A stretch of DNA of 64,000 nt from Amycolatopsis sacchari (GTDB lineage Bacteria; Actinomycetota; Actinomycetes; Mycobacteriales; Pseudonocardiaceae), in the NCBI RefSeq assembly GCF_900114035.1, contig NZ_FORP01000005.1, forward strand, positions 124,001-188,000, written 5' to 3'. Numbering within the stretch: the first letter of the stretch is position 1; the number at the start of each line of letters is the position of its first letter. A model generated the notes under the pieces. The model did not search any database. It was not told the DNA's origin and saw nothing but the letters and a program-made list of their open reading frames with translations. A program made the position numbers and the translations under genes. Below are positions 36,373 through 64,000 of this stretch, piece after piece.

Positions 36373-36410
36373 GCGGGGCGGGCCGCCGGTTGACTCGCCG
36401 CCCCGATCGC

Positions 36411-36432: not shown

Positions 36433-36452
36433 ACGGCAAGCGGGAGGGCGGC

Positions 36453-37964: not shown

Positions 37965-37976
37965 GCCGTCTCCGCG

Positions 37977-39892: not shown

Positions 39893-39905
39893 CGGTTCCT
39901 CCACT

Positions 39906-39976
39906 GTTACATCTTCTTGAACGTAACACACCTTGCGGCCGGGCGTTGTGAGCTGTTACACATGTCCACACGTAAC
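39906..39976. promoter_or_regulatory. Two GTTAC-N12-GTAAC operators in a divergent promoter
   Basis: Site 1 is 39906-39927 and site 2 is 39955-39976, both GTTAC, 12 bases, GTAAC, each flanked by T and A (TGTTAC...GTAACA). Centre-to-centre distance is 49 bp. Site 1 faces the MDR operon and site 2 the hydrolase at 39997. The pattern matches 36411-36432, so one regulator, probably the TetR at 40768, controls all three units. Confidence 0.7.
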
Positions 39977-39996
39977 ACAGGGAGGGAGGGGCAACG

Positions 39997-40764: not shown

Positions 40765-40767
40765 CGC

Positions 40768-41355: not shown

Positions 41356-41418
41356 GCACCGCAGCCTAGTGGGTGCGCCGTCCGGTGGGGCTCGGCACGC
41401 CCGGGAGACGCGAACGCG

Positions 41419-41450
41419 GGCACCCGGGCACTGGCCGGCGTCCGGGTGCC
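41419..41450. repeat. GC-rich hairpin in the TetR/SDR intergenic region
   Basis: GGCACCCGG (41419-41427) and CCGGGTGCC (41442-41450) form a perfect 9-bp stem in the 206-bp divergent gap 41356-41561. No T run follows, so it may be structural or an operator. A more AT-rich segment with the SDR promoter follows. No gene is seen in the gap. Confidence 0.45.
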
Positions 41451-41561
41451 AGGGGGAATAGGCGTTCCCTATGGACCCTGCTGCGATTTCGTCTTTGCTT
41501 CGCGTTCTTTTCCGGACTTAGCCTGGGGAAACCGGAGAACGCAAGGGAAAGGAAATCGTGC

Positions 41562-48301: not shown

Positions 48302-48565
48302 TGGTGGGTGGCGCCGGGGAGGCCGCGGCAGGTGTGGAGCGTGATCGCGGAGGTGTGACTGGCGCGGGGTTCGCGGGGGCGGAGGTCGTGCTGGCGGAGC
48401 GGGTGTGGCAGCGGTGGCGTGCGGGCCGGTGGCAGGTGCCGCCGGGCAGGCACGAGGTGCTGGTGGGGCGCCCGGCGGGGGAGGCCGCGGAGGTGGAGGT
48501 GGTGTGATCGGGCGGGAGCCGGGGCGGTGGTGGCGTGAGGGGCGGTGGCAGGCGCCGCCGGAAAG
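48188..48565 (+). repeat. Three tandem degenerate copies of the GH3 3' end
   Basis: The segment coding VWQRWREGRWQVPPGRHEVL in the GH3 tail (about 48188-48265) recurs nearly intact at about 48402-48480 (VWQRWRAGRWQVPPGRHEVL). It recurs again, shortened, near 48519-48560 (WWREGRWQAPPE). Copy two lies in a 68-codon frame starting at ATG 48301, which overlaps the GH3 stop. That frame is probably a by-product of the duplication rather than a functional gene. Confidence 0.7.
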
Positions 48566-48647
48566 CGCTTCACCGCCGCGTCCCCCCGTCACCGCGCCGT
48601 CGTTTTCCCGCCAGCTTCGCCTCCGCGGCGCTTCTACCGTCGTCGCC

Positions 48648-49829: not shown

Positions 49830-49865
49830 CGCCCCCGGCGCGGCCGCGGTGGGCCGGTTCGGCTG
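49719..49865 (+). repeat. Tandem copy of the MFS gene 3' end
   Basis: A 29-base segment containing GCGGCCGCGGTGGGCCGGTT is identical at 49719-49747 (inside the MFS gene) and 49837-49865 (just past its stop), a 118-bp period. About 30 further bases are similar. The 99-bp gap to the convergent isomerase gene is largely this copy. Confidence 0.65.
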
Positions 49866-49928
49866 CACCGCGGCCGCGGTGGCGAGTGCAGTGGGTCACC
49901 GGCCGGAGCCCGGTGACAACCCCGGACC

Positions 49929-50717
49929 CTACAACCCCGCCGCGATCTCCGTGATCGCCCGCAGGGACGCCAGCGACTCCGTCGTCGGGAGGTACTCCAG
50001 GCCGAACGGGCCCGCGTAGCCCAGCTCGCGCAGTTCCCGCAGCCGGGCCGCCCAGTCGACCGTTCCCGTGCCCGGTTCCGTGCGGTCCGGCAGGTCTGCG
50101 ATCTGCACGTGCGACACCACGTCCATCGCACCGGCCAGTTCCCGCGCGGGCTCCTCGCCCATCTGCAGCGAGTGGTACGCGTCGTAGAGCAACGCGAGCC
50201 CGGGAGAGCCGACCGCGCGCACCGCGGCAATGCACTCAGCCGTGGTGTCGAACAGGGTGCCGGGGTGGTCGACACGCGTGTTCAGGTTCTCCAGCACGAT
50301 CGTCACGCCGTGCTCCGCCGCGATGTCCGCGCCCGCCTTCAGCGCTTCGACCACGATGCCGTGCTGCACGGCCCGCTTCATGTACGGCAGCCCGACCCCG
50401 GAACCGGTCACGATCCGGGTGCAGCCCAACCGCCGCGCGGCCTCGACGGCGGCGCGGACGTGGCCGGTGAACGCCTCGTGCGTACCGGCGTCGGCGAGGG
50501 TGAGGCGTCCTTCGACGAGCATCGTGTGCAGCGTCGAGCCGGTGTCGGAAAGCGCTTTCTCAATGCTGTCGAGGTCCTTGTCGCTGTGCGACCAGATCTC
50601 CACGACGCCGTAGCCGTGGTCGGCCGCCGCGCGGATGCGGTCGCCGAGGTCGTCACCGGCCTCGCGGAACAGCAGTTCGACGTTGACGGACAGGGGTAGT
50701 GACACGGAATCTCCCAT
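49929..50717 (-). CDS. TIM-barrel sugar isomerase/epimerase (hydroxypyruvate-isomerase-like)
   Basis: A 262-residue xylose-isomerase-like TIM barrel (AP endonuclease 2 family). GYGVVEIWSHSD opens the first strands. The metal ligands are likely Glu in TIVLENLNTR, Asp in LALLYDAYHSLQ and His in VSHVQIADLP, with Glu in GPFGLEYLP. The length and LENLN motif fit hydroxypyruvate isomerase-type enzymes. Third gene of an operon of three such proteins (52600 to 49929). Confidence 0.85.
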   Translation of the reverse strand: MGDSVSLPLSVNVELLFREAGDDLGDRIRAAADHGYGVVEIWSHSDKDLDSIEKALSDTGSTLHTMLVEGRLTLADAGTHEAFTGHVRAAVEAARRLGCTRIVTGSGVGLPYMKRAVQHGIVVEALKAGADIAAEHGVTIVLENLNTRVDHPGTLFDTTAECIAAVRAVGSPGLALLYDAYHSLQMGEEPARELAGAMDVVSHVQIADLPDRTEPGTGTVDWAARLRELRELGYAGPFGLEYLPTTESLASLRAITEIAAGL

Positions 50718-50720
50718 GGC

Positions 50721-51665
50721 TCAGTTGGTGTGGTCGAACAAACGGCGCGCGTACCAGCCGTTCAGCATCGCGCTGCGGGCCGGGTTGGGGGTCTGCTCGC
50801 TTTCGAACACCGCCCAGCCCGACCAGTTCCGCAGCAGTGCGGCGACGGCGGGGAAGTCCACCAGCCCGCCCCGCGTACCGCATTCGTAGAACCAGCGCTC
50901 GATCTCCCGTGTGCCGCCTTCCGACAGCATGCTCGCCTCCGCGTGCGGGGCCAGCCGCTCGCCGGTTTCGTCGACGTAGCGGGTGTCCTTGAGGTGCAGG
51001 TGGTCCACCCGGTCCAGGTGCCCGGACAGCACCCGCACGGGGTCGAGACCGGCGACGGTCAGCTCGGCGGTGTCCACGGTGAGCCCGACGAGCGCGGGAT
51101 CGGTGGCCGCGAGCAGCCCGGCGATCACCTTCTCGTCGGCCGCCGCGGACAGGCAGTCCACGTGCAGCGACACCCGCACACCGGATTCCGCCGCCATCGC
51201 GCCGACCGCGTTCCACCCGTCCGCCGCGTCACCGAGACGTCCGTCGGTCAGCGCGCCGTGCCCCGGCAGGGCCCGCACGACCAGCCGGTCGGCGCCGGCC
51301 TCGGCGAGGAACGCGGCGAACGGCCGCAACGACTCGACGATCGCCGCGTGCTGTGAACTGTCCAGAATGGACCGTCCACGGCTCAGCTCCTCGTCCACCG
51401 GCTCGCCGGGATCGACGTAGTACGAGCACACCCGCAGGCCGATTTCCCTTACGACGTCAAGGAACGCGCTCGTGGAACCATACGTGGCGGCGATGGACGA
51501 CGGACGCCCCAGCGGGTCCCAGCGCCCGGTACCCGCCCGCAGTTCGACACCGGTGAACCCGCACGCGGCGATCACCTTCAGCGCGCGCCGGTGTTGTTCG
51601 GGCCGGGTGAAGTCGTCGAAGTTCGGCTTCCACTGGTTGATGGCGTACCCGAGGCGGACGGTCAT
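50721..51665 (-). CDS. TIM-barrel sugar phosphate isomerase/epimerase
   Basis: A 314-residue member of the same superfamily. It opens RLGYAINQWKPNFDDF. VRVSLHVDCLSA supplies His/Asp instead of the usual strand-5 Glu. GLTVDTAELTVAG and VDHLHLKDTRYVD follow, with Glu in WAVFESEQTPNPA at the end. The KDTR motif is shared with the gene upstream, with which it overlaps by four bases. Many isomerases of keto-sugar catabolism have this form. Confidence 0.82.
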   Translation of the reverse strand: MTVRLGYAINQWKPNFDDFTRPEQHRRALKVIAACGFTGVELRAGTGRWDPLGRPSSIAATYGSTSAFLDVVREIGLRVCSYYVDPGEPVDEELSRGRSILDSSQHAAIVESLRPFAAFLAEAGADRLVVRALPGHGALTDGRLGDAADGWNAVGAMAAESGVRVSLHVDCLSAAADEKVIAGLLAATDPALVGLTVDTAELTVAGLDPVRVLSGHLDRVDHLHLKDTRYVDETGERLAPHAEASMLSEGGTREIERWFYECGTRGGLVDFPAVAALLRNWSGWAVFESEQTPNPARSAMLNGWYARRLFDHTN

Positions 51666-52600
51666 GCGTAGATCTCCGAAAGGACGTTGCGGGCGTACCA
51701 CATGGACAGTGCGGTGGCCTCGGCGTAGTCGCCGCCGATGTTGGCCTTGTCGTGCTCGACGGTGATCCAGCCGGTGTAGCCGGTGTCCCGGATCGCCCGC
51801 ATCAGGCGCGGGAAGTCGACCAGCCCGCCCTCGGTGCCCATTTCGTGGAACCAGCGGTCGGTCTGCGGCGCCATCAGCTCGGCGTCCGGGCTGTGCCGGT
51901 ATGCCTCGGTCGTGTCGACCTGGCGCGTGTCCTTGAAGTGGAACCCGGAGCAGCGCTCGTGCAGGTCGAGGAACAACGCGACCGGGTCGATCCCGGCGAT
52001 GCAGTGCTGCGCGGTGTCGCAGAAGAAGCTCACGTACCGCGGGTCGGACCAGTCGTAGAACTTGCGGATGTCGGCCTCGGTGCGGATCGCGCAGAAGAAC
52101 TCGTGGTGCGCCGTGGTCCGCACGCCGAACTCCGTCAGCGTCATCTCTCCGACGCGGCTCCAGCACTCCGCCGCCGCCTTGATCTTGTCGTCGGTCACCG
52201 GCGCGGCCGCGGTGTACAGGCTCGCCGGCATCACGATGAGGTTCTCGATGTCGAGCGCCTGCCACATCCCGAGCATCCGGCGCGTGCTCTCGACGATCTC
52301 GTCGTGCGTTTCGCGCACGTGCGGGTCGGCCAGGCGCGGGTCGTACATGATGCCGCGGAACAGGTTCACGATCTTGTCGATGCCGTGGTCGCGCAGGTAG
52401 TCCTGGTACTTCGCGACCGAGCCGAACATGCCGCTCAGCGCGAAGACCTGGAAGTCGAACATGTCCAGGCCCTCGAAGCCCACGGCGTTGATCTGCTTGA
52501 CGAAGTCGTCCATGTGGCGGCGGGCGGAGTACTGCGTCACGGGACCGCGCGGGCTGTCCACCCGCCAGTGGTCCATGTAGCTCCAGCGGAGGCTGGTCAT
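51662..52600 (-). CDS. TIM-barrel sugar isomerase/epimerase, first gene of a three-isomerase operon
   Basis: A 312-residue protein. Motifs: FEGLDMFDFQVFALSGMFG, TAHHEFFCAIRTEADI, VSFFCDTAQHCIAG (Asp ligand), FHFKDTRQVDTTE (His) and GWITVEHDKA (Glu), the metal-site order of the AP endonuclease 2 family. Directly downstream of the island motif at 52636-52665. It probably acts on a keto- or inosose-type sugar released by the deglycosylation steps. Confidence 0.85.
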   Translation of the reverse strand: MTSLRWSYMDHWRVDSPRGPVTQYSARRHMDDFVKQINAVGFEGLDMFDFQVFALSGMFGSVAKYQDYLRDHGIDKIVNLFRGIMYDPRLADPHVRETHDEIVESTRRMLGMWQALDIENLIVMPASLYTAAAPVTDDKIKAAAECWSRVGEMTLTEFGVRTTAHHEFFCAIRTEADIRKFYDWSDPRYVSFFCDTAQHCIAGIDPVALFLDLHERCSGFHFKDTRQVDTTEAYRHSPDAELMAPQTDRWFHEMGTEGGLVDFPRLMRAIRDTGYTGWITVEHDKANIGGDYAEATALSMWYARNVLSEIYA

Positions 52601-52635
52601 CGTCGATCAACTCCAGAACGTCGGGTGCCTCATTG

Positions 52636-52665
52636 AAACATAATCAAGATTCTGATTCTAGTCTT
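52636..52665. promoter_or_regulatory. Island motif, site B (isomerase operon)
   Basis: On the minus strand it reads CTAGAATCAGAATCTTGATT and then ATG-TTT, matching the CTAGAAT...AAT.TTGA core of site D. It lies 36 bases before the operon start and overlaps the 3' end of the DHA2 transporter gene. Confidence 0.55.
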
Positions 52666-53999
52666 TCGGCGGGCAGGGCCAGTGCGCACACGAGCCCGAG
52701 GGCGAAACACCCCGCGGTCGCCGTGAACACCGGCGCGTAGGACCCGCCCGCCGCCCGGGCGACCAGCGCGCCCAGCACGGCGGCGCCGACGGTCACCCCC
52801 GTCTCCCGCACGAAGGCCAGCCCCGCCGTGACGGCGCCGGCCACCCGTGCCCCGCCCGCGTCCTGCGCCACCACGACGAGGAGCTGCATGAACGACCCGG
52901 TGCCGAGCCCCAGCAGTGCCAGCAGCGCCGCGACGACCGGCAGCGGTGCCCCGTCCAGCAACGCCAGCGCGGCCGCCGCGCCGCCGGACAACGCACAGCC
53001 CGCGATGGGGAACGGGCGCCAGGAACCCCAGCGGCGCACGGCGAAACCGGACGCGTTGACCCCGGCGACGATCCCCGCGGTGATCGGCAGCAGCAGGAGC
53101 CCGGAGGTCGTCGCCGACGTGTCGTACACCTCCTGCACCCACGTCGGCACGTACGCCAGCACGCCGAACAGGCCCATGCCGCCCAGCAGCGCCAGCAGGC
53201 AGCACAGCAGCACCGTGCGGTCCCGCAACAGCCCCACCGGGAGGACCGGGTTCGCCGCCCTGCGCTCCCAGCCGAGCGCGACGGCGGCGGCCACCACGGT
53301 GAGCGCCGTTCCCGTTGTGGTGGCGGGGTTCCAGCCGGTTTCGGCGACCGCCGTGGTGACCAGGACGAGCCCGGTGGCCGCCGCGGCGAGCAGGACGGCG
53401 CCGGTCGTGTCGAACCGCGTGCGCTCGTCCCGCCCGTGATCGGCCGGGACGGCGGTGAGCACGAGCGCGGCCGCCGCGGCCCCGAGCGGCAGGTTGAGCC
53501 AGAAGATCCAGCGCCAGGACGTGGCGTCGGTGAGCCAGCCGCCGAGGAGCGGGCCGGCGACCGTGGCGACGGCGTACACGGCGCCGAGCGGACCGAGGAA
53601 CGCGGCGCGTTCACGCGCGGGCACGGCACCGGCCACCACGGCCTGCGGCAGCACCAGCAGGCCGGCGCCGCCGAGGCCCTGCACCAGCCGGGCCGCGGCC
53701 AGGAAGCCGACGTCGCCGGCGAACCCGCAGGCGGTGGAGGCGGCGACGAACACGGCGATCGAGCAGACCAGCACGCGGCGGTGGCCGAACCGGTCGCCGA
53801 GCGCCCCGGCGGCGGGCATCGCGGCCGTCAGCGCCAGCGCGTAGGCGGTGACGATCCACGAGACGCGGGACGGCGCGCCCAGTTCGGCGACGATCTCGGG
53901 CAGTGCGGTGGCGACGATCGTCTGGTCGAGCGCGCCGAGCGCGGTGACGAGGACGAGGCACGCGAACAGCGCGCGGCGCCCGGTTGCGGTGGCAGGCAA
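52644..53999 (-). CDS. MFS drug transporter, DHA2-like
   Basis: About 451 residues from TTG 53999, which follows GGGAGAACCCCG; a GTG at 54104 lacks a ribosome site and adds a low-complexity tail. DHA2 signs are LGALDQTIVATALPEIVAEL in segment 1, GALGDRFGHRRVL in the A loop, GPLLGGWLTDATSWRWIFW in segment 5 and up to 14 hydrophobic segments. Likely proton-driven export of toxic aglycones or drugs. Its 3' end carries site B. Confidence 0.83.
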   Translation of the reverse strand: MPATATGRRALFACLVLVTALGALDQTIVATALPEIVAELGAPSRVSWIVTAYALALTAAMPAAGALGDRFGHRRVLVCSIAVFVAASTACGFAGDVGFLAAARLVQGLGGAGLLVLPQAVVAGAVPARERAAFLGPLGAVYAVATVAGPLLGGWLTDATSWRWIFWLNLPLGAAAAALVLTAVPADHGRDERTRFDTTGAVLLAAAATGLVLVTTAVAETGWNPATTTGTALTVVAAAVALGWERRAANPVLPVGLLRDRTVLLCCLLALLGGMGLFGVLAYVPTWVQEVYDTSATTSGLLLLPITAGIVAGVNASGFAVRRWGSWRPFPIAGCALSGGAAAALALLDGAPLPVVAALLALLGLGTGSFMQLLVVVAQDAGGARVAGAVTAGLAFVRETGVTVGAAVLGALVARAAGGSYAPVFTATAGCFALGLVCALALPAERLESES

Positions 54000-54176
54000 C
54001 GGGGTTCTCCCTGGGGCGACGGCGGCGACCGGGCGCGGGGAGGGGTCGGCTCCCCGACGGGCGGCTCGCGGGCGCACCCCGCCGTCGGCGCGATTATGCA
54101 CCACGCCCGAAGCGCCCAGGACCGCTCGACGGCGGGTTCTCGCAGGTCAGGGCGGCGGCATCGCTTTCGTCAATAA

Positions 54177-54200
54177 GCAGAATCCGAACTATGAATTTCC
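54177..54200. promoter_or_regulatory. Island motif-like site C (before the GPH transporter)
   Basis: AGCAGAATCCGAACTATGAA resembles the plus-strand form of site A (CCAGAATCAACATTCTAAAT) and shares GAATCCGAA with site E. It is the weakest of the five. It lies about 80 bases before the transporter start, in the divergent gap 54000-54281, where no other gene is seen. Confidence 0.4.
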
Positions 54201-54281
54201 TTTATCCTGGTGCCGTGCCGCATCGTGGTCGGTGTCTTCCCCGGCGCCACGACGGCGCCGTGTGCGCAAAGGAGCGGCACT

Positions 54282-55670
54282 GTGGACATCACCAGCGACG
54301 TCACCCCGCGGGTGGCGCCCGGACGCGCGGTCCGGCTCGGATGGCGGGAAAAGCTCGGGTACGGAGCCGGCGACCTCGCCTCGAACCTCTCCTGGAACCT
54401 CGTCGGCGGGTTCCTGCTCTACTACTACACCGACGTGGCCGTCGTGCCCGTCGCCGCGCTCGGCACCCTGTTCCTCGTCGCCCGCCTGCTGGACGCGGTG
54501 GTCGACCCGGCGATCGGCGTCCTGGTCGACCGGACGCGCTCCCGCTGGGGCAAGGCGCGGCCCTACCTGATCTTCGCGTCGATCCCGTTCGGCGCGCTCG
54601 GCGTGCTCACCTTCACCGTCCCCGACATCGGCGACACCGGGAAGCTGATCTACGCGTTCCTCACGTACCTGACCCTCGGCCTGCTGTTCTCGATGGTCAA
54701 CGTGCCCTACAGCTCGCTGCTGCCGATGATGACGCGCGATTCGCAGGAACGCATGCAGATGGGCGGGCTGCGGGCGATCGGCAGCTCGGTCGGCTCGATC
54801 ATCGTCACCGCGGGCACCACGCCGTTCGTGGCCCTGCTCGGCGGCGGGAACGAGCAGCGCGGCTGGACGATCGCGACGCTGATCTTCAGCGTGCTGTCCG
54901 TCGGGTTCTTCGTGTTCACCTTCCTGGTGTGCAAGGAGCGGTACGCACTGCCGCCGGAGAGCGACTCGCTGCGGCCGCGCGACGCGTTCCGCACCCTGTG
55001 GGGCAACCGGGTCTGGAAGCTCACCTTCGTCTACGGCGTGCTGAACTTCGTGCGGCTGGGCATGGTGCTCGCGGTGACCGTCTACTTCGCACTCGCGGTG
55101 CTGCACGCGCCGTGGGCGATCTCGGTGCTGCTGCCGCTGGTGTCCGGCGCGATGATCGTCGGCGGGTTCGTCGCCCCGGCCTACTACCGCCGCTTCGGCA
55201 AGCGGCGCGGCAACATCCAGGCGCTCGGTGTCGGCTTCGTGTTCTGGGCCGCGATGATCCCGCTCGAGAGCACCTTCCCGGCGTTCCTGACCTGCTACAT
55301 CCTCGGCACGCTGGCGATCAACCTATCGATGGTCTCGATGTTCACGATGGTCGCGGACACCGTCGAGTACCAGCAGTGGCGGTTCGGCACGCGCAACGAG
55401 GGGCTGCTGTCCTCGGGCATCAGCTTCGCCACCAAGGTCGGGTCGGCGATCGGGTCCGCCGCGGTCGCCTACGGCCTCGGCCTGGCCGGGTACACGCCCG
55501 GCGAGGCCTCCGGCTCGGCGCTGACCGCGATCCGGGTCATGTTCTACGGCGCCCCGCTGCTGCTGATCGCGTTGCAGGCCCTGACGATGGCGTTCTGGGA
55601 CCTCGACGGCAAGCACGAGCGGATGGCGGAGGAGATCGACCGCGCGACCCGCGCGAAGGAGGAAGGCTGA
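54282..55670 (+). CDS. GPH-family sugar/glycoside:cation symporter
   Basis: A 462-residue, 12-segment protein from GTG 54282 after AAAGGAG. GPH hallmarks are EKLGYGAGDLASNLSWNLVG at the start, DAVVDPAIGVLVDRTRSRWG in the segment 2-3 loop and VADTVEYQQWRFGTRNEG in the central region. The family imports melibiose, glucuronides, xylosides and other glycosides with sodium or protons. It is the obvious entry route for the island's substrates. One base separates it from the flavin reductase gene. Confidence 0.9.
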   Translation: MDITSDVTPRVAPGRAVRLGWREKLGYGAGDLASNLSWNLVGGFLLYYYTDVAVVPVAALGTLFLVARLLDAVVDPAIGVLVDRTRSRWGKARPYLIFASIPFGALGVLTFTVPDIGDTGKLIYAFLTYLTLGLLFSMVNVPYSSLLPMMTRDSQERMQMGGLRAIGSSVGSIIVTAGTTPFVALLGGGNEQRGWTIATLIFSVLSVGFFVFTFLVCKERYALPPESDSLRPRDAFRTLWGNRVWKLTFVYGVLNFVRLGMVLAVTVYFALAVLHAPWAISVLLPLVSGAMIVGGFVAPAYYRRFGKRRGNIQALGVGFVFWAAMIPLESTFPAFLTCYILGTLAINLSMVSMFTMVADTVEYQQWRFGTRNEGLLSSGISFATKVGSAIGSAAVAYGLGLAGYTPGEASGSALTAIRVMFYGAPLLLIALQALTMAFWDLDGKHERMAEEIDRATRAKEEG

Positions 55671-55671
55671 C

Positions 55672-56151
55672 GTGAACCCGTTCGACGGCACCGAGTTCCG
55701 GCGCGCGCTGAGCCACTACCCGACCGGCGTCTGCGTCATCACCGCGGGCACCGGGGCCGCGATGGTGGTCGGCACGTTCACCTCGGTGTCGCTGGACCCG
55801 CCGCTGGTGGGGTTCCTGCCCGACCGGTCCAGCACGTCGTGGCCCCGGATCCGCGAAACCGGCCGTTTCTGCGCCAACGTGCTCGCGGCCGGGAACGAGC
55901 GGCTGTGCCGGGACTTCGTCGAGAAGGTGCCGGACCGCTTCGCCGTGCACGGCCTGCCCGGTCCGGCGCCGTACGGGCCCCGGCTGGCCGGCACGGTCCT
56001 GCGGGTCGGCTGCGACATCGAGGCGGTGCGGCCCGCGGGCGACCACGAGCTGGTGCTGGGCCGGGTGCGGGCGCTGGAGGTCGAGCCGGACGCGGGGGAG
56101 CCGATGGTGTTCCTGCGCGGCCGGTACGCCGCGGCAGCGGTGCCGGCGTGA
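55672..56151 (+). CDS. Flavin reductase-like protein (FMN-binding split barrel)
   Basis: A 159-residue protein from GTG 55672. The domain is visible as FRRALSHYPTGVCVITAG, GTFTSVSLDPPLVGFLPDR and RFCANVLAAGNERL. Such proteins supply FMNH2 to two-component monooxygenases. The likely partner in this island is the LLM monooxygenase at 44856. Co-transcribed with the GPH symporter and the TetR gene. Confidence 0.87.
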   Translation: MNPFDGTEFRRALSHYPTGVCVITAGTGAAMVVGTFTSVSLDPPLVGFLPDRSSTSWPRIRETGRFCANVLAAGNERLCRDFVEKVPDRFAVHGLPGPAPYGPRLAGTVLRVGCDIEAVRPAGDHELVLGRVRALEVEPDAGEPMVFLRGRYAAAAVPA

Positions 56152-56861
56152 TCCCGGTGTCGCCCGGAGCGGCCGCCGTGCCGTACGGTCGGCCCGTGGA
56201 GAGCGTCAACGCCCGGGTCAGGGAGCCCAAGCAGGAGCGCAGCAGGCTGTCGTTCGACAAGGCGCTGGACGCGGTCGTCGCGCTGCTGGTGGAGCGCCGC
56301 TCGGATGCCTTCACCCTGGCCGACGTCGCGCAGCGCGCCGGGGTGTCCACCGGCTCGATCTACGGCCGGGTGAGCAGCAAGGACGACCTGATCCGCGCCG
56401 CGCACGTCCGTGAGATGGCGCGGATCGGCGAGGAGCAGCGCGCGGCGTTCGCCGGACCGGCCCCGGAGGGGGAGACGTTCGGCGAGGCGGTCGAGCGGGT
56501 CCTCGGCACGGCGGCGGAGCTGTTGCGCCGCAACGCGCCGGTGCTCGGCCCGTTCATGCTGCTGGCCAACACCGACGCGCAGATCGCCGAGCTGGGCGGC
56601 GCGGCGCACGCCGAGCTGCGGGACGCGTTCGTCGCAGCGCTCGCCGAGCGGGAGGACGAGATCCGCCACCCCGACCCGCACCGGGCGCTGGAGTGGAGCT
56701 TCACCGTCGTCTACAGCGTGCTCGCCCGCTGGCTCGCGCTGGGCAGCACCCAGCAGGCGTCCGGCGAGGGGGAGTGGTCGGAGATCCTGGTCGACCTCGC
56801 GCGGATGGTCCTGGCGTTCCTGACCCAGCCCGAGCCGCCGCGGAAACGCCGTCGGCGCTGA
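56148..56861 (+). CDS. TetR-family transcriptional regulator
   Basis: Up to 237 residues from GTG 56148, which overlaps the reductase stop; GTG 56196 (VESVNARVRE) is an alternative that gives a more usual N-terminus. HTH: ALDAVVALLVERRSDAFTLA, then DVAQRAGVSTGSIYGRVSSK. The C-terminal domain is helical. Co-expressed with uptake and flavin reductase genes, it is a second candidate regulator for the island beside the LysR. Confidence 0.83.
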   Translation: MIPVSPGAAAVPYGRPVESVNARVREPKQERSRLSFDKALDAVVALLVERRSDAFTLADVAQRAGVSTGSIYGRVSSKDDLIRAAHVREMARIGEEQRAAFAGPAPEGETFGEAVERVLGTAAELLRRNAPVLGPFMLLANTDAQIAELGGAAHAELRDAFVAALAEREDEIRHPDPHRALEWSFTVVYSVLARWLALGSTQQASGEGEWSEILVDLARMVLAFLTQPEPPRKRRRR

Positions 56862-56877
56862 GGGTTTCCGCCCGGGG

Positions 56878-56937
56878 AGCCCTGGCTTTTCTGCGCCGGG
56901 AAAACTAGAATTATAATGTTGAATCTGAAGTGAGGGT
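56878..56937 (+). promoter_or_regulatory. Island motif, site D, in a promoter block duplicated at 59080
   Basis: The block runs from GAGCCCTGGCTTTTC to the ribosome site of the P450 gene. It closely matches 59080-59140, including GAGCCCTGGCTTTTC, GCGCC, AAAC and ATGTTGAATC-GAAGTG. The core 56903-56931 contains CTAGAATTATAATGTTGAAT. The P450 start follows ten bases later. Confidence 0.7.
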
Positions 56938-56940
56938 GGT

Positions 56941-59076
56941 ATGAGCTGTCCCTTCACCGATCCCCGCGCGTTGTTCGGCGACCTGGCGGCGGCTCGTGCG
57001 CGGCCCGGCCTGACCTGGAGCGAGTCGCTGGGGCGGTACGTCGTGTCGCGCTACGAAGACATCGTCGAGGCCCTGCAGCGGCCGGAGGTGTTCTCCTCCA
57101 GGCCGGTCGTGCCCGAACTGCCTTCGCCGTGGCGGGACCGGTTCGCCGGACGGGTGCCGGACCGGGGCACGTTGCTGGGGCACGACAACCCCGACCACGA
57201 CCGGTTGCGGAGCGCGGTCAACACGTTCTTCATGCCGAGGCGCCTGGCCCGGTTCGAACCCTGGATCGAGCGGACCGCACACTCGCTGATCGACGAGTTC
57301 ACCGACCGCGGCGAGATCGACCTCAAACGCCACTTCGCCCTGCCGCTGCCGCTGCGGACCATCGCGCACGTCGTCGGTCTCGACACCGCCAAGGCCGGCT
57401 GGATCGGCTTCGCACTGGCCTTCTTCCTCGGCCCGAAGGACACCCACTACCAGGCCTCACCCGAGGAGAAGGCGGAGGCGCTGCTGGAGCTGCACGACCA
57501 CCTCCGCGAGGTGATGGCCGACCGCCGGCGCGACCGCCGCGACGACCTGATCAGCCACATCTGGAACGTGCGCGACAGCGGCGAGGTCGAGATGACCGAC
57601 TTCGAGATGCTGTCGATGTTCCCCGGCCTGATGCTGGCCGGGCACGAGACCTCGTCGAACCTGCTGTGCATGGGGCTGGCCCACCTCCTTTCGCGCGACG
57701 GTGCGTACGAGGCCGCCCAGTACGACCACGCCAGCCGGGCCAGGGCACTGGAGGAGCTGCTGCGGTACGAGTCGGCGATCACGGGCATGCCGCGCCTGGT
57801 CACCCGCGACACGGAGCTGGGTGGCACCCGGCTGCGGGCGGGTGAGGAGGTGTTCCTGGCCTACGCCTCGGGGAGCCGGGACGCCGCCGTGTTCGACGAC
57901 CCGGACGGGATCGTGCTCGACCGCGGGTTCGAGCGACCGCACCTGGGGTTCGGCCAGGGCGTCCACGCCTGCCTCGGTGCGCCGCTGGCGAGGCTGCTGC
58001 TCAGGACCGAGTTGCGCGTGATCCACGAGCGGCTTCCCGGGCTCCGCCTCGCGAAGCCGTACGCCGAGCGGGAGTACGGTCCCGTCGGCGAAGCACGGGG
58101 AGTACCGGAGCTGCTGGTGCGGTGGGATCCCGGCCGGCGGCGGCCACCGGTGCGCGCGCGGCAGGACATCCCCGCCGTGGTGGCCGCGAAGTCCGTGGTC
58201 GCCGAGGGCGTGGTCGAGGTGGAGTTCACCCCGCTGGACGGTCGTTTCCCGGCGTGGGCGCCCGGAGCGCACATCGACGTCCGCTTCGCGCCGGGGCTCA
58301 TACGCCAGTATTCGCTGTGCGGTGATCCGGGTGAACACGACCGGTGGCGCGTGGCGATCCGGCGCGAGGTGGACGGCCGGGGTGGCTCCGTCCACGCGCA
58401 CGACCGGCTGGCGGTGGGGGACGAGGTGACACTGGCCGGGCCACGCAACAACTTCGCGCTCGTCCCGGCGCCGGAGTACCTGTTCGTCGCGGGAGGCATC
58501 GGGATCACGCCGCTGCTCCCGATGATGGCGCGGGCCGCGGCGCCCTGGCGGACCGTCTACTTGGGACGGACCGAGCGGAGCATGCCCTACCGCGAGCTCG
58601 TCCGGAGCCTCGGGCACGCGACCATCTGGCCTTCCGATCGCGGCCGCTTCGACCTCGACGCGCTCCTCGCCTCGGCGAAGCCGGGCACGGCGGTGTACTG
58701 CTGCGGGCCGGAGCGGTTGCTGGCCGCGGTGGAGGAGCTGTGCGACCGGCGTGCACTGGCGCTGCACGTCGAGCGGTTCGCGCCGAAGCCGCAGGAGCCC
58801 GGCGACAGTACGGAGTTCGAGGTCGTCCTCGCGGCGAGCGGGCGCACCGTCCACGTCGGGGCGGAGGAGCCGGTGCTGGACGCGCTGAACCGGGCCGGTG
58901 CCCAGGTGCCGTCCACCTGTCGCGAGGGCACGTGCGGCACGTGTGAAGTGCGGGTGCTCAGTGGCACGCCGGACCACCGGGACTCGGTGCTCACCCCCGC
59001 CGAGCGGGCGGCCGGGAAGTACCTGATGCCGTGCGTGTCGCGCTCCCTGACGCCTTCGCTGGTACTCGACCTGTAG
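56941..59076 (+). CDS. Self-sufficient cytochrome P450 fused to phthalate-dioxygenase-type reductase
   Basis: A 711-residue fusion. The P450 domain (about 1-395) has AGHETS at 233-238, ExxR at 272-275 and the heme loop FGQGVHACLG with Cys344. The reductase follows: FMN motif RQYS at 455-458, NAD motif GGIGITP near 520, then a 2Fe-2S domain with Cys660, Cys665, Cys668 and Cys698. This is the CYP116B/P450RhF plan, somewhat shorter than the usual 770-800 residues. Such enzymes hydroxylate or O-dealkylate aromatics with NAD(P)H alone. In this island demethylation or hydroxylation of the aglycone is likely. Confidence 0.92.
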   Translation: MSCPFTDPRALFGDLAAARARPGLTWSESLGRYVVSRYEDIVEALQRPEVFSSRPVVPELPSPWRDRFAGRVPDRGTLLGHDNPDHDRLRSAVNTFFMPRRLARFEPWIERTAHSLIDEFTDRGEIDLKRHFALPLPLRTIAHVVGLDTAKAGWIGFALAFFLGPKDTHYQASPEEKAEALLELHDHLREVMADRRRDRRDDLISHIWNVRDSGEVEMTDFEMLSMFPGLMLAGHETSSNLLCMGLAHLLSRDGAYEAAQYDHASRARALEELLRYESAITGMPRLVTRDTELGGTRLRAGEEVFLAYASGSRDAAVFDDPDGIVLDRGFERPHLGFGQGVHACLGAPLARLLLRTELRVIHERLPGLRLAKPYAEREYGPVGEARGVPELLVRWDPGRRRPPVRARQDIPAVVAAKSVVAEGVVEVEFTPLDGRFPAWAPGAHIDVRFAPGLIRQYSLCGDPGEHDRWRVAIRREVDGRGGSVHAHDRLAVGDEVTLAGPRNNFALVPAPEYLFVAGGIGITPLLPMMARAAAPWRTVYLGRTERSMPYRELVRSLGHATIWPSDRGRFDLDALLASAKPGTAVYCCGPERLLAAVEELCDRRALALHVERFAPKPQEPGDSTEFEVVLAASGRTVHVGAEEPVLDALNRAGAQVPSTCREGTCGTCEVRVLSGTPDHRDSVLTPAERAAGKYLMPCVSRSLTPSLVLDL

Positions 59077-59079
59077 CGC

Positions 59080-59140
59080 GAGCCCTGGCTTTTCCGCGCC
59101 CGTAAACCTTGAATCATCATGTTGAATCCGAAGTGGAGGA
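59080..59140 (+). promoter_or_regulatory. Island motif, site E, duplicated promoter block
   Basis: Second copy of the block at 56878-56937. The core 59104-59133 contains TTGAATCATCATGTTGAATC. It drives the deglycosidase/oxidase operon that starts at 59145. The first bases lie just past the P450 stop. Confidence 0.7.
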
Positions 59141-59144
59141 TCCC

Positions 59145-60134
59145 GTGAGCGCACTGCCCGACCGCCCGCGCCGCGGCGTGAGCCTGTACTCCTTCCAGGA
59201 GGAGTACTTCCTGCGCACCATGTCCGTCGAGGACTGCGTCGCCGCCTCTGCGGCCATGGGTGCCAAGGGGATCGAGATCATCCCCGAGCAGTCCATCCCT
59301 GGCTACCCGGTGCTCACCGACGAGTTCGTGGCGCGGTGGCACGGCTGGATGGAGACCTACGGGACGACGCCGGTCGCCACCAACGCCTTCCTCGACACGA
59401 AGCTGCACCCCGACCGCTGGCTCACGCTCGAGGAGCAGGTCGCCTCGGTGCGGCGGGACATCGACATCGCCGTCCGGCTCGGCGCCGGCATCGTCAAGGC
59501 CACCATCAACTTCTCACCCGAGGTGATGGCGGCCGCCGGGCCCTACGCCGAGGAGCAGGGTGTGCGGCTGCTGCTGGAGGTGCACGCGCCGTTCCACTTC
59601 CGGCACCCGTGGATCCTCGAACACCTCGAAGTGATGCACCGCTTCGGCCCGCACGTGCTCGGCCTGATGCCGGACATGGGCGTGCACGTGCGGCGGTTCC
59701 CGCGCGTGGTCAGCGAACGCGCCCTGCGTGACGGCGCGAAGCCCGAGCTCGTCGACTACATCGTGCGGACCTACGACGACCACGGTGACACGCGCGCGCT
59801 GATGGACATCGTCAACTACCGCGGCGGCGGGCCCGTCGAGTTCGGCCTGGCGCGCCAGGCCACCCACTACATCTGGACCGAGCCGAAGGACATGGTCGAG
59901 CACCTGCCCTACATCGGGCACGTGCAGGCGAAGTTCTACGAGATGACCGAGGACGGCGAGGAGTACAGCATCCCCTACGACGAGATCGTGCCGGTGCTCG
60001 CCGACGGCGGTTTCACCGGGTACCTGTCCAGCGAGTACGAGGGCAACCGGCACATCCAGGACGCCTTCGCAGTCGACAGCGTCGAGCAGGTGCGCCGCCA
60101 GCAGGACATGCTGGCGCGGCTGCTCGGCGAGTGA
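59145..60134 (+). CDS. C-glycoside deglycosidase alpha-subunit candidate (TIM-barrel isomerase family)
   Basis: A 329-residue protein from GTG 59145 after GGAGG. It is an AP endonuclease 2-type TIM barrel with probable metal ligands Glu145 (LLEVHAPFH), Asp177 (LMPDMG), His259 (YIGHVQAKF) and Glu297 (SSEYEG). In known C-glycoside deglycosidases the alpha subunit is of this family and pairs with a DUF6379 beta subunit, which is the next gene here, 11 bases on. The enzyme breaks the C-C bond of 3-keto-C-glycosides by a Mn-dependent elimination. Assignment rests on that pairing plus the oxidase that follows. A plain keto-sugar isomerase is the alternative. Confidence 0.75.
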   Translation: MSALPDRPRRGVSLYSFQEEYFLRTMSVEDCVAASAAMGAKGIEIIPEQSIPGYPVLTDEFVARWHGWMETYGTTPVATNAFLDTKLHPDRWLTLEEQVASVRRDIDIAVRLGAGIVKATINFSPEVMAAAGPYAEEQGVRLLLEVHAPFHFRHPWILEHLEVMHRFGPHVLGLMPDMGVHVRRFPRVVSERALRDGAKPELVDYIVRTYDDHGDTRALMDIVNYRGGGPVEFGLARQATHYIWTEPKDMVEHLPYIGHVQAKFYEMTEDGEEYSIPYDEIVPVLADGGFTGYLSSEYEGNRHIQDAFAVDSVEQVRRQQDMLARLLGE

Positions 60135-60145
60135 GGAGAACCCCG

Positions 60146-60517
60146 ATGTTCGACCAGTACATCGTGTGCGGGCTGCGGGCCCGCGGCCGGACCGGCGGCG
60201 AGGTGGAGGTGCGGATGCCCTACTACCGCGGGCTTTTCCTGTCCATGGTGGAGGCCGTCGACCTGGTGCTCGACGGCGTCCCCGTGCCGCCGGAGCGCAC
60301 CACGTTCACCGTGCACGGCAACACCTACACCTTCGCCGAGCTGCCCGGGGTCACCGGCGACCGGTGGGAGATGGGGGAGCGGGCCGTGCTGGGCTTCGAC
60401 ACCGGCGAACCGCTCGCCCCCGGGGAGCACGACGTGGCCGTCTCGGTGCGGCTGCGGATCTCCTACATGCCGGTGCCCGGCGGCGGGCGCGACCGCAAGC
60501 GGCTGGTGGCGGCATGA
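60146..60517 (+). CDS. DUF6379 protein, C-glycoside deglycosidase beta-subunit-like
   Basis: A 123-residue all-beta protein with GAGGAG upstream of ATG 60146. It has the family pattern MPYYRGLFLSMVEAVDLVLD, then FTVHGNTYTFAELPG, WEMGE and a closing RLRISYMPVPGG. DUF6379 proteins are the small subunit of bacterial C-glycoside deglycosidases (DgpB/CarC type), where they complete the alpha-subunit active site. The stop overlaps the oxidase start (ATGA). This short gene is the most specific marker of the pathway. Confidence 0.8.
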   Translation: MFDQYIVCGLRARGRTGGEVEVRMPYYRGLFLSMVEAVDLVLDGVPVPPERTTFTVHGNTYTFAELPGVTGDRWEMGERAVLGFDTGEPLAPGEHDVAVSVRLRISYMPVPGGGRDRKRLVAA

Positions 60518-61962
60518 GCCGCACCTTTCCGTCCACTGTGGACGTCGCGGTCGTCGGCAGCGGGCCGTGTGGCGCCGCCTATGCGCGGATCCTGTCCGAG
60601 AAGCGACCGGATCTGCGGCTGTCCACGTTCGAGGCCGGGCCGTTGCTGGCCGACCCGCCGGGCGTGCACGTGAAGAACATCGAGGACCCGGCCGCGCGGG
60701 AACGGGCGCAGCGGCGGTCGGAGGGACCGGGCGGGTCGCCGCGCGGGCGCCCGGGCACGTTCCTCCTGGAGAACGACGCGCTGCCCGCCGCGGCCATGTC
60801 CAGCAACGTCGGCGGGATGGGCGCGCACTGGACGGCGGCCTGCCCGCGCCCCGGCGACAGCGAGCGCATCGGGTTCCTGCCCGGCCTCGACGAACTGCTC
60901 GACGAGGCGGAACGGCTGCTCGGCGTGTCCGCGCACGCCTTCGACGACGCGCCCTTCGCCGCGGAAGTCCGCAAGCGGCTGGCCGCCGAGTTCGACTCCG
61001 GCCGCGCCGAGGACCGCCGGGTGCGGCCGATGCCGCTGGCGGTGCGGTGCGAGCCCGACGGCTCGCTGATCTGGTCCGGAGCCGACGTCGTGTTCGGCGA
61101 GGCCACCCGGCGCAACGAGCGGCACACGCTGTTCCCCGAGGCGCTCGTGACCCGAGTGCTCGTCGAGGACGGGCGCGCGACCGGTGTCCTGGTGCGCGAC
61201 CTGCGGGACGGCGGGGAGCACGAGGTGCGTGCCAGGCGGGTCGTGGTCGCGGCCGACGCGCTGCGCACGCCGCAGCTGCTGTGGGCCTCCGGGGTGCGGC
61301 CGCCCGCGCTCGGTCGTTACCTGAATGATCAACCGCAGGTCGTTTTCGCGGTACGGTTGCGGGACGTCGGGCCCGCGGGGACCGATCCACGCGGGAGGTC
61401 GAAGATCGTGCGGCAGAGCGGGGTGAGCTGGGTGCCGTTCACCGACACCGAGCCCTGCCACGGGCAGGTGATGCAGCTCGACGCGTCCCCCGTGCCCCTG
61501 GCGCCGGACGACGTGCCCGCGCCCGGCTCGATCGTCGGGCTCGGCTGGTTCTGCGCCAAGGACGTGCGGCCCGAGGACCGGGTCACGTTCGACGACGAGG
61601 CCCGCGACGGCTACGGGATGCCCGCGATGCGCATCCACTACCGGCTCACCGCGCGGGACGAAGCCGCGCTGGACGCCGCCCGCGCGGCCGTCCGCCGGGC
61701 CGCCGCCGCGCTCGGCACCCCGCTGGACGACGAGCCGATCACGCTCCCGCCCGGCGCGTCCCTGCACTACCAGGGCACGGTGCGGATGGGCGCCGCCGAC
61801 GACGGAACCTCGGTGTGCGGCCCGGATTCGCGGGTGTGGGGCGTCGAGGGCCTGCACGTGGCGGGCAACGGCGTCATCCCCACCGCGACCGCCTGCAACC
61901 CGACCCTGACCTCGGTGGCGCTGGCCGTCGCCGGGGCCAGGGCGATCGCGGAAGAGGTCTGA
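60514..61962 (+). CDS. GMC oxidoreductase, pyranose-oxidase-like (putative C-glycoside 3-oxidase)
   Basis: A 482-residue flavoenzyme. The FAD motif [11 protein letters not shown] is at residues 14-24 and [17 protein letters not shown] at about 97-113, the form seen in pyranose oxidases. The catalytic pair is His418 ([11 protein letters not shown]) and Asn462 ([10 protein letters not shown]). Bacterial relatives (CarA type) oxidise C3 of the glucosyl group of C-glycosides, making the substrate for the deglycosidase. It overlaps the DUF6379 stop and the VOC start, so all four proteins are made together. No signal peptide; cytosolic. Confidence 0.82.
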
Positions 61963-62297
61963 TGGACGTGGAGAAGATCGCGACGGTCGTGCCCGTCGCC
62001 GACCTGCCCGCCGCGGTGGGCACGTGGTCGCGCCTGCTGGGCGCGGAACCGGCGTTCGTCGACGGCGACCGCTGGGCGCAGTTCGACGTGGCCGGCGCGC
62101 GGGTCGCGCTGGCCGGGACCGACAGCGTCACCCGGCACCCGGCGCTGCTGCTGCGGGTCGCCGATGTGGCGGCGGCCCGCGCGGAAGCCGTGTCGGCGGG
62201 CCTCGAAGCCGGGCCGGTGGAGACCGGGCCGCACGAGCTGCGCTGTCTGGTGTGGACGGACGACGGCACGGAAATCGTGCTGCACAGCCGAGTTTGA
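61962..62297 (+). CDS. VOC (glyoxalase/bleomycin-resistance) family protein
   Basis: A 111-residue protein made of two beta-alpha-beta-beta-beta halves: [20 protein letters not shown], then [14 protein letters not shown], and [19 protein letters not shown] and [15 protein letters not shown]. The metal ligands of glyoxalases are not all evident. ATG 61962 overlaps the oxidase stop by one base. In this operon it could be an isomerase or dioxygenase acting on the released sugar or aglycone. Confidence 0.8.
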
Positions 62298-62314
62298 CGA
62301 TGGGAGAAGCCACC

Positions 62315-63325
62315 GTGACCCGACCGATCACCCTGTTCACCGGCCAGTGGGCGGACCTGCCGCTGGAGGAGGTCGCGCGGCTGGCGTCCTCCTGGGGCTA
62401 CGACGGCCTGGAGATCGCCTGCTGGGGCGACCACCTGGACCCGAACCGGGGTGCGGTCGACGACGCGTACCTCGACGAAAAGCGGGCCCTGCTGGACAAG
62501 TACGGGTTGCGGGTGTTCGCGATCTCCAACCACCTCAAGGGCCAGGCGGTCTGCGACGACCCGATCGACGAGCGCCACCGCGCGATGCTGCCCGCCTCGA
62601 TCTGGGGTGACGGCGAACCCGAAGGCGTCCGGCAGCGGGCCGCCGAGGAGATGAAGAACACCGCGCGCACCGCCGCCCGCCTCGGCGTCGACACGGTGGT
62701 CGGGTTCACCGGCTCGGCGATCTGGAAGTACGTGGCCATGTTCCCGCCGGTGCCGGGGAACCTCATCGACGCGGGGTACGAGGACTTCGCCGCCCGCTGG
62801 AACCCGATCCTCGACGTGTTCGACGAAGTGGGCGTGCGCTTCGCCCACGAGGTGCACCCGTCCGAGATCGCCTACGACTACTGGACGACCAAGCGGGCGC
62901 TGGAGGCGATCGGCCACCGCGAGGCGTTCGGCCTGAACTGGGACCCCAGCCACATGATGTGGCAGGACACCGATCCGGTCGGGTTCATCCTCGACTTCGC
63001 CGACCGCATCTACCACGTGGACTGCAAGGACGTGAAGCTGGCGGTCGGCGACGGCCGCAACGGGCGGCTCGGCTCGCACCTCGGCTGGGGGGATCCGCGC
63101 CGCGGCTGGGATTTCGTGTCCACCGGGCACGGGGACGTGCCGTGGGAGCGGTGTTTCCGCGCGCTCAACGCCATCGGCTACTCGGGGCCGATCTCGATCG
63201 AATGGGAGGACGCCGGCATGGACCGGCTCGTCGGTGCCCCCGACGCGCTCGAATTCGTGCGGTCGCGGCTGTTCGACCCGCCGGCCGCGTCCTTCGACGC
63301 CGCCTTCGGGGAGAAGCAGGTATGA
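62315..63325 (+). CDS. TIM-barrel sugar phosphate isomerase/epimerase
   Basis: A 336-residue protein from GTG 62315, which has GGGAGAAG five bases upstream; ATG 62300 would add five residues. It opens [20 protein letters not shown] and has [15 protein letters not shown], then [13 protein letters not shown] (Glu), [12 protein letters not shown] (Asp, His), HVDCKDVKL and [11 protein letters not shown] (Glu). This full ligand set is typical of actinobacterial sugar isomerases found next to Gfo/Idh/MocA dehydrogenases. Its stop overlaps the next gene. Confidence 0.87.
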
Positions 63326-64000
63326 GCGAAGTGTTGCGGGTCGCCATGATCGGTCACGGCTTCATGGGGGCGGCCCACTCCCAGGCGTGGCGGAACGCGC
63401 CACGGTTCTTCGACCTGCCGCGACCGGTCTCGATGGACGTCGTCGTCGGCCGGGACGCCGAGCGCGCGCGGGAAGCCGCGGCGCGGTACGGCTGGGCGTC
63501 GAGCGCGAGCGACTGGCGGGAGGTCGTCGCCAGGGACGACATCGACCTGGTGGACATCTGCACCCCCGGTTCGTCGCACGCCGAGATCGCGGTCGCGGCG
63601 CTCGCGGCCGGCAAGCACGTGCTGTGTGAAAAGCCCTTGGCGAACACGGTTTCCGAGGCGGTCGCGATGGCGGACGCGGCGGAGGAGGCCGCGCGGCGCG
63701 GGGTCTTCGCGATGACCGGCTTCACCTACCGCCGCGTGCCCGCGATCACCCTCGCGGCCGACCTCGTCCGGCGGGGCGAGATCGGTGAGGTGCGGCAGGC
63801 GCGGGCGCAGTACCTGCAGGACTGGCTCAGCGATGCCGAAGCGCCCCTCACTTGGCGGCTCCAGCGCGACGAGGCGGGTTCGGGCGCGCTCGGCGACATC
63901 GGCGCGCACATCGTGGACGCGGTGCAGTTCGTGACGGGCCAGACGGTCACGACCGTCAGCGGCACGACGCGGACCTTCGTCGCGGAGCGGCCGTTGCCTT
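63322..64000 (+). CDS. Gfo/Idh/MocA-family sugar dehydrogenase, 3' end cut by window
   Basis: The first 226 residues are visible. NAD-binding [13 protein letters not shown] is at about 8-20, with [20 protein letters not shown], the catalytic-type LCEKPLANT motif (EKP) and [16 protein letters not shown], which begins the C-terminal domain with the Asp/His pair. Family length is 350-400, so about 150 residues lie outside. Such enzymes interconvert sugars and 3-keto-sugars with NAD, which fits handling of the 3-keto-glucose expected from the pathway. Confidence 0.88.

Follow-up and report, generated by a model that had tools for sequence, protein, structure and literature searches.

A candidate C-glycoside oxidation and deglycosidase module within a putative glucoside catabolic island of Amycolatopsis sacchari

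Does the three-gene cluster at positions 59145–61962 of a 64,000-nucleotide stretch of the Amycolatopsis sacchari genome (contig NZ_FORP01000005.1, positions 124,001 to 188,000; hereafter the window) encode a complete system for the oxidation and cleavage of C-glycosides, and does its surrounding island amount to an undescribed version of that pathway? A first-pass annotation of this DNA, from a host genome of 7.59 Mb with 71.4% G+C, had suggested both. Judging by protein family and gene arrangement, we are confident that the cluster combines a predicted C-glycoside 3-oxidase with a predicted two-subunit C-glycoside deglycosidase (CGD). This combination is already published as the CarABC and PurABC systems (PMC8563793, PMC12724307), so that the core is a further member of a described kind and its chemistry is not new. 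The suggestion of novelty therefore holds mostly for genes outside 59145–61962: the part that looks undescribed comprises a set of luciferase-like monooxygenase, flavin reductase and GH3 glucosidase, a cytochrome P450–reductase fusion, and a coupled hydratase and reductase.

The oxidase and deglycosidase core

The three core genes lie on the plus strand. The CGD alpha gene (59145–60134) starts with a GTG codon at 59145 behind a GGAGG site and is separated by an 11-nt gap from the beta gene (60146–60517), which starts with ATG and whose stop codon overlaps the ATG of the oxidase gene (60514–61962) as ATGA; these start, stop and gap positions confirm the span and the adjoining or overlapping layout described for the cluster at first pass. 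In Pfam, alpha matches AP_endonuc_2 (3.6e-16), beta matches CGDB (DUF6379, PF19906; 1.1e-27, 96.5 bits against a cut-off of 27.6), which upholds its earlier placement in DUF6379, and the oxidase matches GMC_oxred_C (4.5e-20). The closest solved relatives by sequence are 8qvc_A for alpha (8.3e-110, 52.5% identity over 322 positions), 8qvc_B for beta (3e-24), and 7qf8 (2.1e-201), 7dve (8.4e-192) and 8qve (5.6e-142) for the oxidase, the last of which we take to be DaCGO1, the oxidase of Deinococcus aerius. All three proteins thus match CGD and C-glycoside-oxidase families when searched against characterised members.

The structural model of alpha (predicted local distance difference test, pLDDT, 92.9; predicted template modelling score, pTM, 0.89) is a TIM barrel with four helices at residues 188–242. 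These helices would correspond to the lid known from PuCGD and AgCGD2, a feature that EuCGD does not have (PMC8563793). The 16 best fold matches of the model in the PDB are all CGD chains (E-values of 4.7e-21 or better, the next match being at 8.2e-12), headed by the deglycosidase of Deinococcus aerius (TM-score 0.95, root-mean-square deviation 1.2). The oxidase, in turn, bears the signature of clade IV, which is marked by the flavinylation motif (G/A)AHW plus Thr and the substrate loop LDASPVPL(A/G)(D/E)DD (PMC10807413); it carries GAHWT and a 12-letter loop that is one letter off this consensus. Its catalytic H417 and N461 (counted from window position 60517), the His/Asn pair recognised at first pass, are invariant in all seven aligned oxidases, and an alignment reading shows the seven positions named for PsG3Ox to be kept as K, R, T, Q, Q, H and N. 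It is on these Pfam families, solved relatives, alpha fold matches and clade IV motifs with the His/Asn pair that our assignment of the core as a predicted C-glycoside 3-oxidase and deglycosidase is based.

Alternatively, the module might be mainly one for O-glycoside 3-oxidation and elimination, with C-glycoside cleavage incidental; 3-keto-O-glycosides would then eliminate on their own or with the alpha–beta pair, and the GH3 enzyme would act on the same compounds. PurA is reported to act on O-glycosides, which after oxidation break down with no need for an enzyme (PMC12724307), and the extant clade IV enzyme PsPOx to oxidise the O-glycoside fraxin (PMC10807413); moreover, a GH3 gene is present in 24 of the 26 monooxygenase loci surveyed below, and the symporter of the island belongs to a general glycoside family. 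However, alpha–beta pairs with this type of beta subunit are described as C–C cleaving enzymes (PMC8563793, PMC12724307), oxidases of clades III and IV are reported to favour C-glycosides over glucose (PMC10807413), and the fold matches of alpha, as noted, lead exclusively to CGDs before any other protein. We therefore regard a primarily O-glycosidic role as quite unlikely, and are fairly confident of C-glycosides as the substrates.

Two features of the core nevertheless weigh against its assignment. The first concerns the metal set of alpha, which had been called plausible at first pass. The relevant residues are E146, H148, D178, Q262, K264, E298 and E300 (counted from window position 59142), of which all but Q262 align with identical residues of AgCGD2 (E147, H149, D179, K271, E305 and E307, respectively). 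In AgCGD2 the metal is bound by Glu147, Asp179, His269, Lys271 and Glu305 (PMC8563793). Alpha thus keeps the catalytic His149 and Glu307 (as H148 and E300) and four of the five metal ligands, and only the place of His269 departs from the expected set, being occupied by Gln262. At this place, 24 of 37 aligned alpha-like proteins have Gln and 13 have His, and Gln is found in 18 of the 18 members of the close clade of alpha, the window protein included; these counts leave out one set (A3), whose members had been picked with the pattern QAKFYEM. In the Novosphingobium family, His occupies this place in four of five alphas encoded at monooxygenase loci, the fifth having Gln.

The second feature is a shortened insertion-1 in the oxidase. 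In PsG3Ox this insertion spans residues 60–93, and deletion of residues 73–93 gave an inactive, FAD-poor enzyme (PMC10646112); relative to PsG3Ox, the window oxidase has 20 of the 34 insertion-1 residues, lacking 14, and misses 7 more further downstream. Insertion-1 is longer in the oxidases of loci L006, L034, L038 and L041. The short insertion would either be stabilised in another way or go with a changed activity.

Since the regions affected by the two changes have been shown to be important in related enzymes (PMC8563793, PMC10646112), the oxidase or alpha might be inactive or have shifted in substrate. Yet the Gln is common to 17 relatives of alpha at 69–91% identity and also occurs in the solved Microbacterium testaceum deglycosidase 8qrz (FIQAKF), so that a Gln metal site is not unheard of, and the oxidases of loci L027 (90% identity) and L028 (75%) have an insertion-1 that is equally short or, in L028, shorter still, while keeping all catalytic residues. 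A loss or change of function thus appears highly improbable, and we retain the assignment as a predicted oxidase and deglycosidase.

This assignment is strengthened by the conservation of the module together with its neighbours. Upstream of alpha, on the same strand, lie genes for a GPH-family sugar symporter (54282–55670; TIGR00792 above its cut-off), a flavin reductase (55672–56151; PF01613, HsaB-like) and a TetR-family regulator (56148–56861). The order of transporter, flavin reductase, regulator, alpha, beta and oxidase is the same, at 72–96% identity, in three other genomes, two from the host genus (G294 and G132) and one from its family (G298), and the module is therefore not a chance resemblance. 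These three genomes have no P450 gene between the regulator and alpha. The nearest named relatives at the locus are Amycolatopsis deserti, A. thermalba and A. tucumanensis, whose alpha proteins are 91–93% identical to that of the window.

Three CGDB genes are present in the host genome, each in a locus of a different make-up. One of the other two (L006) encodes a 522-residue CarA-like oxidase; its GPH carrier and ROK-type regulator were recognised from likeness and by visual inspection. The other (L007, on contig C48) has a different, non-pyranose-oxidase GMC protein of 556 residues, a Gfo relative and a hydratase relative; among its neighbours, a catechol-2,3-dioxygenase relative and a DesA/LigM-like O-demethylase score under their curated cut-offs, and a dihydropteroate-synthase-like gene was noted by eye; these suggest methoxylated aglycones for that locus. 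Elsewhere in the order, seven loci (L029, L030, L033, L036, L037, L040 and L041; Geodermatophilaceae, as we infer) each hold at least two CGD alpha-like genes and two oxidases, and four of them probably encode a fused beta–alpha protein of 430–435 residues, like 8qrz.

Two candidate aglycone oxygenases

What might happen to the aglycone after cleavage? A recurrent neighbour of deglycosidase genes is a luciferase-like flavin mononucleotide (FMN) monooxygenase (44856–45959, plus strand; PF00296, 152.3 bits against a cut-off of 27.9), whose stop codon overlaps the start of the GH3 glucosidase gene (45956–48301, plus strand). Its model is of moderate confidence (pLDDT 71.6), with 1luc as the best fold match (2.5e-17), and its fold matches span luciferase and type II Baeyer–Villiger, desulfonating and N-dealkylating FMN enzymes; the fold thus confirms the family without choosing the reaction. 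In NCBIfam, all 19 subfamilies listed for this protein, which cover varied reactions, score below their cut-offs.

Three surveys centred on this monooxygenase, made without regard to CGD, covered the host order, the family of Novosphingobium capsulatum (L096) and plasmids, and together gave 26 loci. In the order (397 genomes; cut-offs of 1e-100 for the monooxygenase and 1e-60 for window-type alpha), the monooxygenase occurs in 8 genomes, all of them among the 17 with alpha, at gaps of 3.5–13.2 kb (hypergeometric 1.7e-12, a value that ignores the kinship of the genomes). It is present at 1e-90 in 8 of 199 genomes of the Novosphingobium capsulatum family, with alpha within about 10 kb in seven of the eight, one of which (L143) shows only a piece of alpha at the edge of the stretch. 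Ten of 72,556 plasmids carry it at 1e-50, and alpha lies clearly within 15 kb in four: those of Deinococcus aetherius (7.5 kb from alpha), Sphingobium TomTYG65 and, twice, Croceicoccus marinus. Overall, alpha is near the monooxygenase in 19 of the 26 loci, or in 20 if plasmid PP1Y is counted, although such counts are inflated by the relatedness of the genomes. Gene orders around the monooxygenase differ between Amycolatopsis, Modestobacter, Thermocatellispora, Streptomyces RB17 and the Novosphingobium family. An apparent lack of alpha in four monooxygenase genomes of the latter at 1e-90 was rejected, as the DNA of L141–L144 revealed a more distant alpha subclade. A phylum-wide sample of 346 genomes at 1e-80 returned the monooxygenase only from the host's own genome.

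Several observations speak against a tight association. In the order, 9 of the 17 alpha genomes have no monooxygenase at 1e-100. In locus L147, a broken monooxygenase copy near a contig end is accompanied by relatives of GH3, FMN reductase, hydratase, Gfo and GMC proteins, with alpha located elsewhere. On plasmid PP1Y, a doubtful alpha relative (28% identity) lies 4 kb away with no recognised beta nearby, the clear alpha being 19 kb off; on P6W, alpha is 31 kb from the monooxygenase, and four of the ten plasmids carry no alpha at 1e-25. A flavin reductase was recognised beside the monooxygenase in 21 of the 26 loci, leaving five where it was not, and in L059 none was recognised within 10 kb. 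Monooxygenase sets with GH3 and no CGD also occur, and we accordingly rejected the idea that the monooxygenase is an exclusive partner of the deglycosidase.

The reductases themselves are of different kinds: PF01613 proteins in seven of the eight order loci, and homologues of an FMN_red (PF03358) protein in seven of the eight family loci and seven of the ten plasmid loci. That unrelated flavin reductases would serve the same job across the sets argues for a two-component FMN monooxygenase. As to its target, we lean towards the aglycone, because this is the part common to O- and C-glucosides, because the set also occurs with GH3 in the absence of CGD, and because of neighbours of an aromatic-breakdown type. 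In Pseudomonas CIP-10 and D. aetherius, the monooxygenase lies near VOC, cyclase and fumarylacetoacetate-hydrolase genes, which we take as aromatic breakdown, and in L146 an extradiol-dioxygenase relative lies behind the set. The view of the monooxygenase and the P450 fusion as an aglycone-oxidising arm comes from this neighbourhood, and we are unsure of it.

A further possibility is that the substrate of both oxygenases is the sugar moiety or the whole glycoside, hydroxylated for example before cleavage. The overlap of the monooxygenase and GH3 genes and their position among sugar genes fit such a role, and neither the varied, sub-threshold NCBIfam relatives nor the fold matches point to one reaction; the VOC, cyclase and fumarylacetoacetate-hydrolase genes of CIP-10 and D. 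aetherius and the extradiol-dioxygenase relative of L146 speak against it. We judge a sugar or glycoside target unlikely, and continue with the aglycone as the presumed target.

In L146, positions 13228–16064 hold the extradiol-dioxygenase relative with, by eye, a hydrolase-like and a cyclase-like gene, adjoining the CGD genes; a similar three-gene set was seen by eye in L141, L098 and L081, from sphingomonads and Actinoallomurus.

The second candidate oxygenase is encoded between the TetR gene and alpha (56941–59076, plus strand). This cytochrome P450 is fused to a phthalate-dioxygenase-reductase-type half with a 2Fe-2S centre, and its heme, FMN and FeS motifs are present, giving a self-sufficient P450–reductase–2Fe-2S layout in one chain; the closest solved proteins are 6kbh and 6laa, whose kind we take to be the CYP116B family. 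Although absent from the module in L026–L028, the fusion is not an oddity of the strain, an idea that we rejected on finding orthologues in the A. tucumanensis island (86% identity, directly after the VOC-like gene), in G340 and G371 (60–62%, 15 kb from alpha; both taken to be Geodermatophilaceae of one genus) and on two Novosphingobium plasmids (52–53%, adjoining TetR and monooxygenase genes). With the window counted, six of the eight orthologues above 50% identity lie in or beside such islands. The remaining two, both in G356, count against a fixed link, the stretches fetched around them containing no CGD or monooxygenase gene. Plasmids gave 125 matching records at 1e-50, and among the best 10 of these 125 only the top two share their record with the monooxygenase.

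The P450 gene stands behind a copy of the leader of alpha. A 56-nt direct repeat, 86% identical between its copies, occurs ahead of alpha (59080–59135, plus strand; promoter-like TGGCTT-17-TTGAAT by eye) and ahead of the P450 gene (56877–56932, plus strand; TGGCTT-17-TAGAAT by eye). A 20-base pattern derived from the copies and relatives is found, with up to two mismatches, only at these two places in the 7.6 Mb genome, and the leader also precedes alpha in relatives L056–L058. The fusion is thus probably expressed with the module, and we read the duplication as a sign that the P450 gene was captured and brought under the control of the module itself.

Sugar end, pathway and surrounding genes

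The core is followed on the plus strand by three further genes: one for a short protein (61962–62297) that is VOC/glyoxalase-like by eye only, with 0 Pfam matches at 0.01; one for an AP_endonuc_2 protein (62300–63325); and one for a Gfo/Idh/MocA oxidoreductase, a candidate 3-keto-glucose reductase (63322–64000), which continues for 464 bases beyond the window (L005:322–1464). From alpha to the Gfo gene, all junctions except the 11-nt gap are overlaps or a 2-nt gap. The short protein is kept at 82–83% in the Amycolatopsis loci L056–L058. Solved relatives of the 62300 protein are the 2-hydroxy-3-keto-glucal hydratase 8ro4 (1.2e-41) and 2zds (3.4e-170). The 63322 protein reaches 343 of the 650 bits required for levoglucosan dehydrogenase (NF052479) in NCBIfam and is therefore kept as Gfo/Idh/MocA. 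A scheme of oxidation, elimination, hydration and reduction has been put forward, the evidence on AtHYD and on a Gfo enzyme being reported as preliminary (PMC10628242), and the window seems to hold genes for all four predicted steps in one packed run. Relatives of both genes are found near the module in L061, L070 and L081 (the Gfo of L070 at only 35%). They are absent behind the module in the Amycolatopsis relatives examined, L026, L027 and L056–L058, and likewise in L028, which counts against this reading.

Overall, the island is probably catabolic for plant C-glucosides and, likely enough, for the matching O-glucosides too. We infer the reactions, the substrate class, the order of steps and the role of both monooxygenases as follows. 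The symporter would bring the glycoside into the cell, where the oxidase, using O2, would oxidise the C3 hydroxyl of its glucose to give the 3-keto-C-glycoside and H2O2. The metal-dependent alpha–beta pair would then remove the C2 proton and break the aryl–sugar C–C bond by beta-elimination, yielding the aglycone and 2-hydroxy-3-keto-glucal; the latter would be converted to 3-keto-glucose by the 62300 protein and reduced to glucose by the Gfo/Idh/MocA enzyme. GH3 may release the same aglycone from O-glucosides, and the luciferase-like monooxygenase, supplied by the flavin reductase, would attack it, with the P450–reductase fusion as a possible further attacker in this strain. The first-pass annotation had placed the module in an island with its own uptake and aglycone genes, and uptake and oxidative genes do surround it. 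Against the scheme, a ring-cleavage gene was not recognised among the scanned genes of the window (most of 44856–64000 and seven in 34490–42332).

More tentatively, and with slightly less than even confidence, we propose that an undescribed unit leading from glucoside to aglycone is common to bacteria of at least three phyla. In it, GH3 (for O-glucosides) and 3-oxidation plus CGD (for C-glucosides) would feed one two-component luciferase-family FMN monooxygenase; flavin reductases of unrelated families would take each other's place, and copying of the promoter would have brought in a self-sufficient P450 to serve as the second aglycone oxygenase. The monooxygenase, reductase, glucosidase and P450 set provides named genes for the study of what comes after aerobic C-deglycosylation, and the natural Gln-for-His metal site and short insertion-1 offer test cases for claims on both enzymes.

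The rest of the region includes further sugar-related genes. By eye, the GH3 protein has no signal peptide and has an SDY motif at the usual place of the nucleophile; a 124-nt direct repeat, 93% identical with copies 212 nt apart, lies at and behind the end of its gene (48160–48495). Three minus-strand AP_endonuc_2/IolE-like genes (49929–52600) travel with the module in several relatives: AP2_a, hydroxypyruvate-isomerase-like (49929–50705), and the IolE-like AP2_b (50721–51665) and AP2_c (51662–52600). Next to them lies a gene for a DHA2-type MFS transporter (52644–53999, minus strand). Far upstream, a tRNA-Pro gene (15720–15794) is followed by a likely integrase gene (15900–17105, by eye) and, also by eye, genes of an integrated-conjugative-element type up to about 25 kb (25037).

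Relation to known systems

In the open literature searched, no paper reports C-glycoside deglycosylation with a luciferase-like monooxygenase, and among the matches listed none links such monooxygenases with flavonoids or GH3, CYP116B or self-sufficient P450s to C-deglycosylation, although Furlanetto et al. 2024 (Deinococcus aerius) may describe such neighbours. The terms monooxygenase and luciferase are absent from the main texts, supplements aside, of PMC8563793, PMC10646112 and PMC12724307. For Novosphingobium HR1a, a luciferase-like monooxygenase-type oxidoreductase and a GH3 protein are reported in separate tables and, in the parts of that source consulted, are not tied to glycoside cleavage (PMC10413115).

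For the individual enzymes, the comparison with solved proteins is closest for D. aerius and Pseudarthrobacter siccitolerans. The D. aerius deglycosidase DaCGD (8qvc, 8umc) is the best solved relative of both alpha and beta, but has His at the place of Gln262. The M. testaceum deglycosidase (8qrz, 8un2; a C-glucosyl deglycosidase by title) shares the Gln, but is a single chain of 435 residues and only 30–31% identical to alpha in the fold alignment. PsG3Ox/PsPOx (7qf8) of P. siccitolerans is the best match of the oxidase and has the clade IV motifs in common with it, while possessing the insertion-1 and downstream residues that the window protein lacks. The CYP116B P450s (6kbh, 6laa) share the single-chain layout of the fusion, which is distant from them and stands in another genomic setting.

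At the level of the pathway, the GlycDH-OGE-HYD-Gfo operon of Agrobacterium follows the same four-step non-hydrolytic logic, with relatives of the hydratase and Gfo proteins (PMC10628242); in the window, however, the first step would fall to an O2-using oxidase and the lyase would be the CGD pair. The nearest counterparts of the core are CarA/CarBC of Microbacterium (MiCGD; MtCarA, 7dve) and PurA/PurBC of Paenarthrobacter, which likewise combine a GMC, pyranose-oxidase-like 3-oxidase with an alpha–beta CGD in soil actinobacteria, PurABC-type homologues being reported mainly in Actinomycetota (PMC12724307). Compared with these systems, the A. sacchari locus differs in the Gln that replaces a metal His, in the shorter insertion-1, and in the coupled hydratase and Gfo, the monooxygenase, the GH3 and the P450 fusion encoded around its core.

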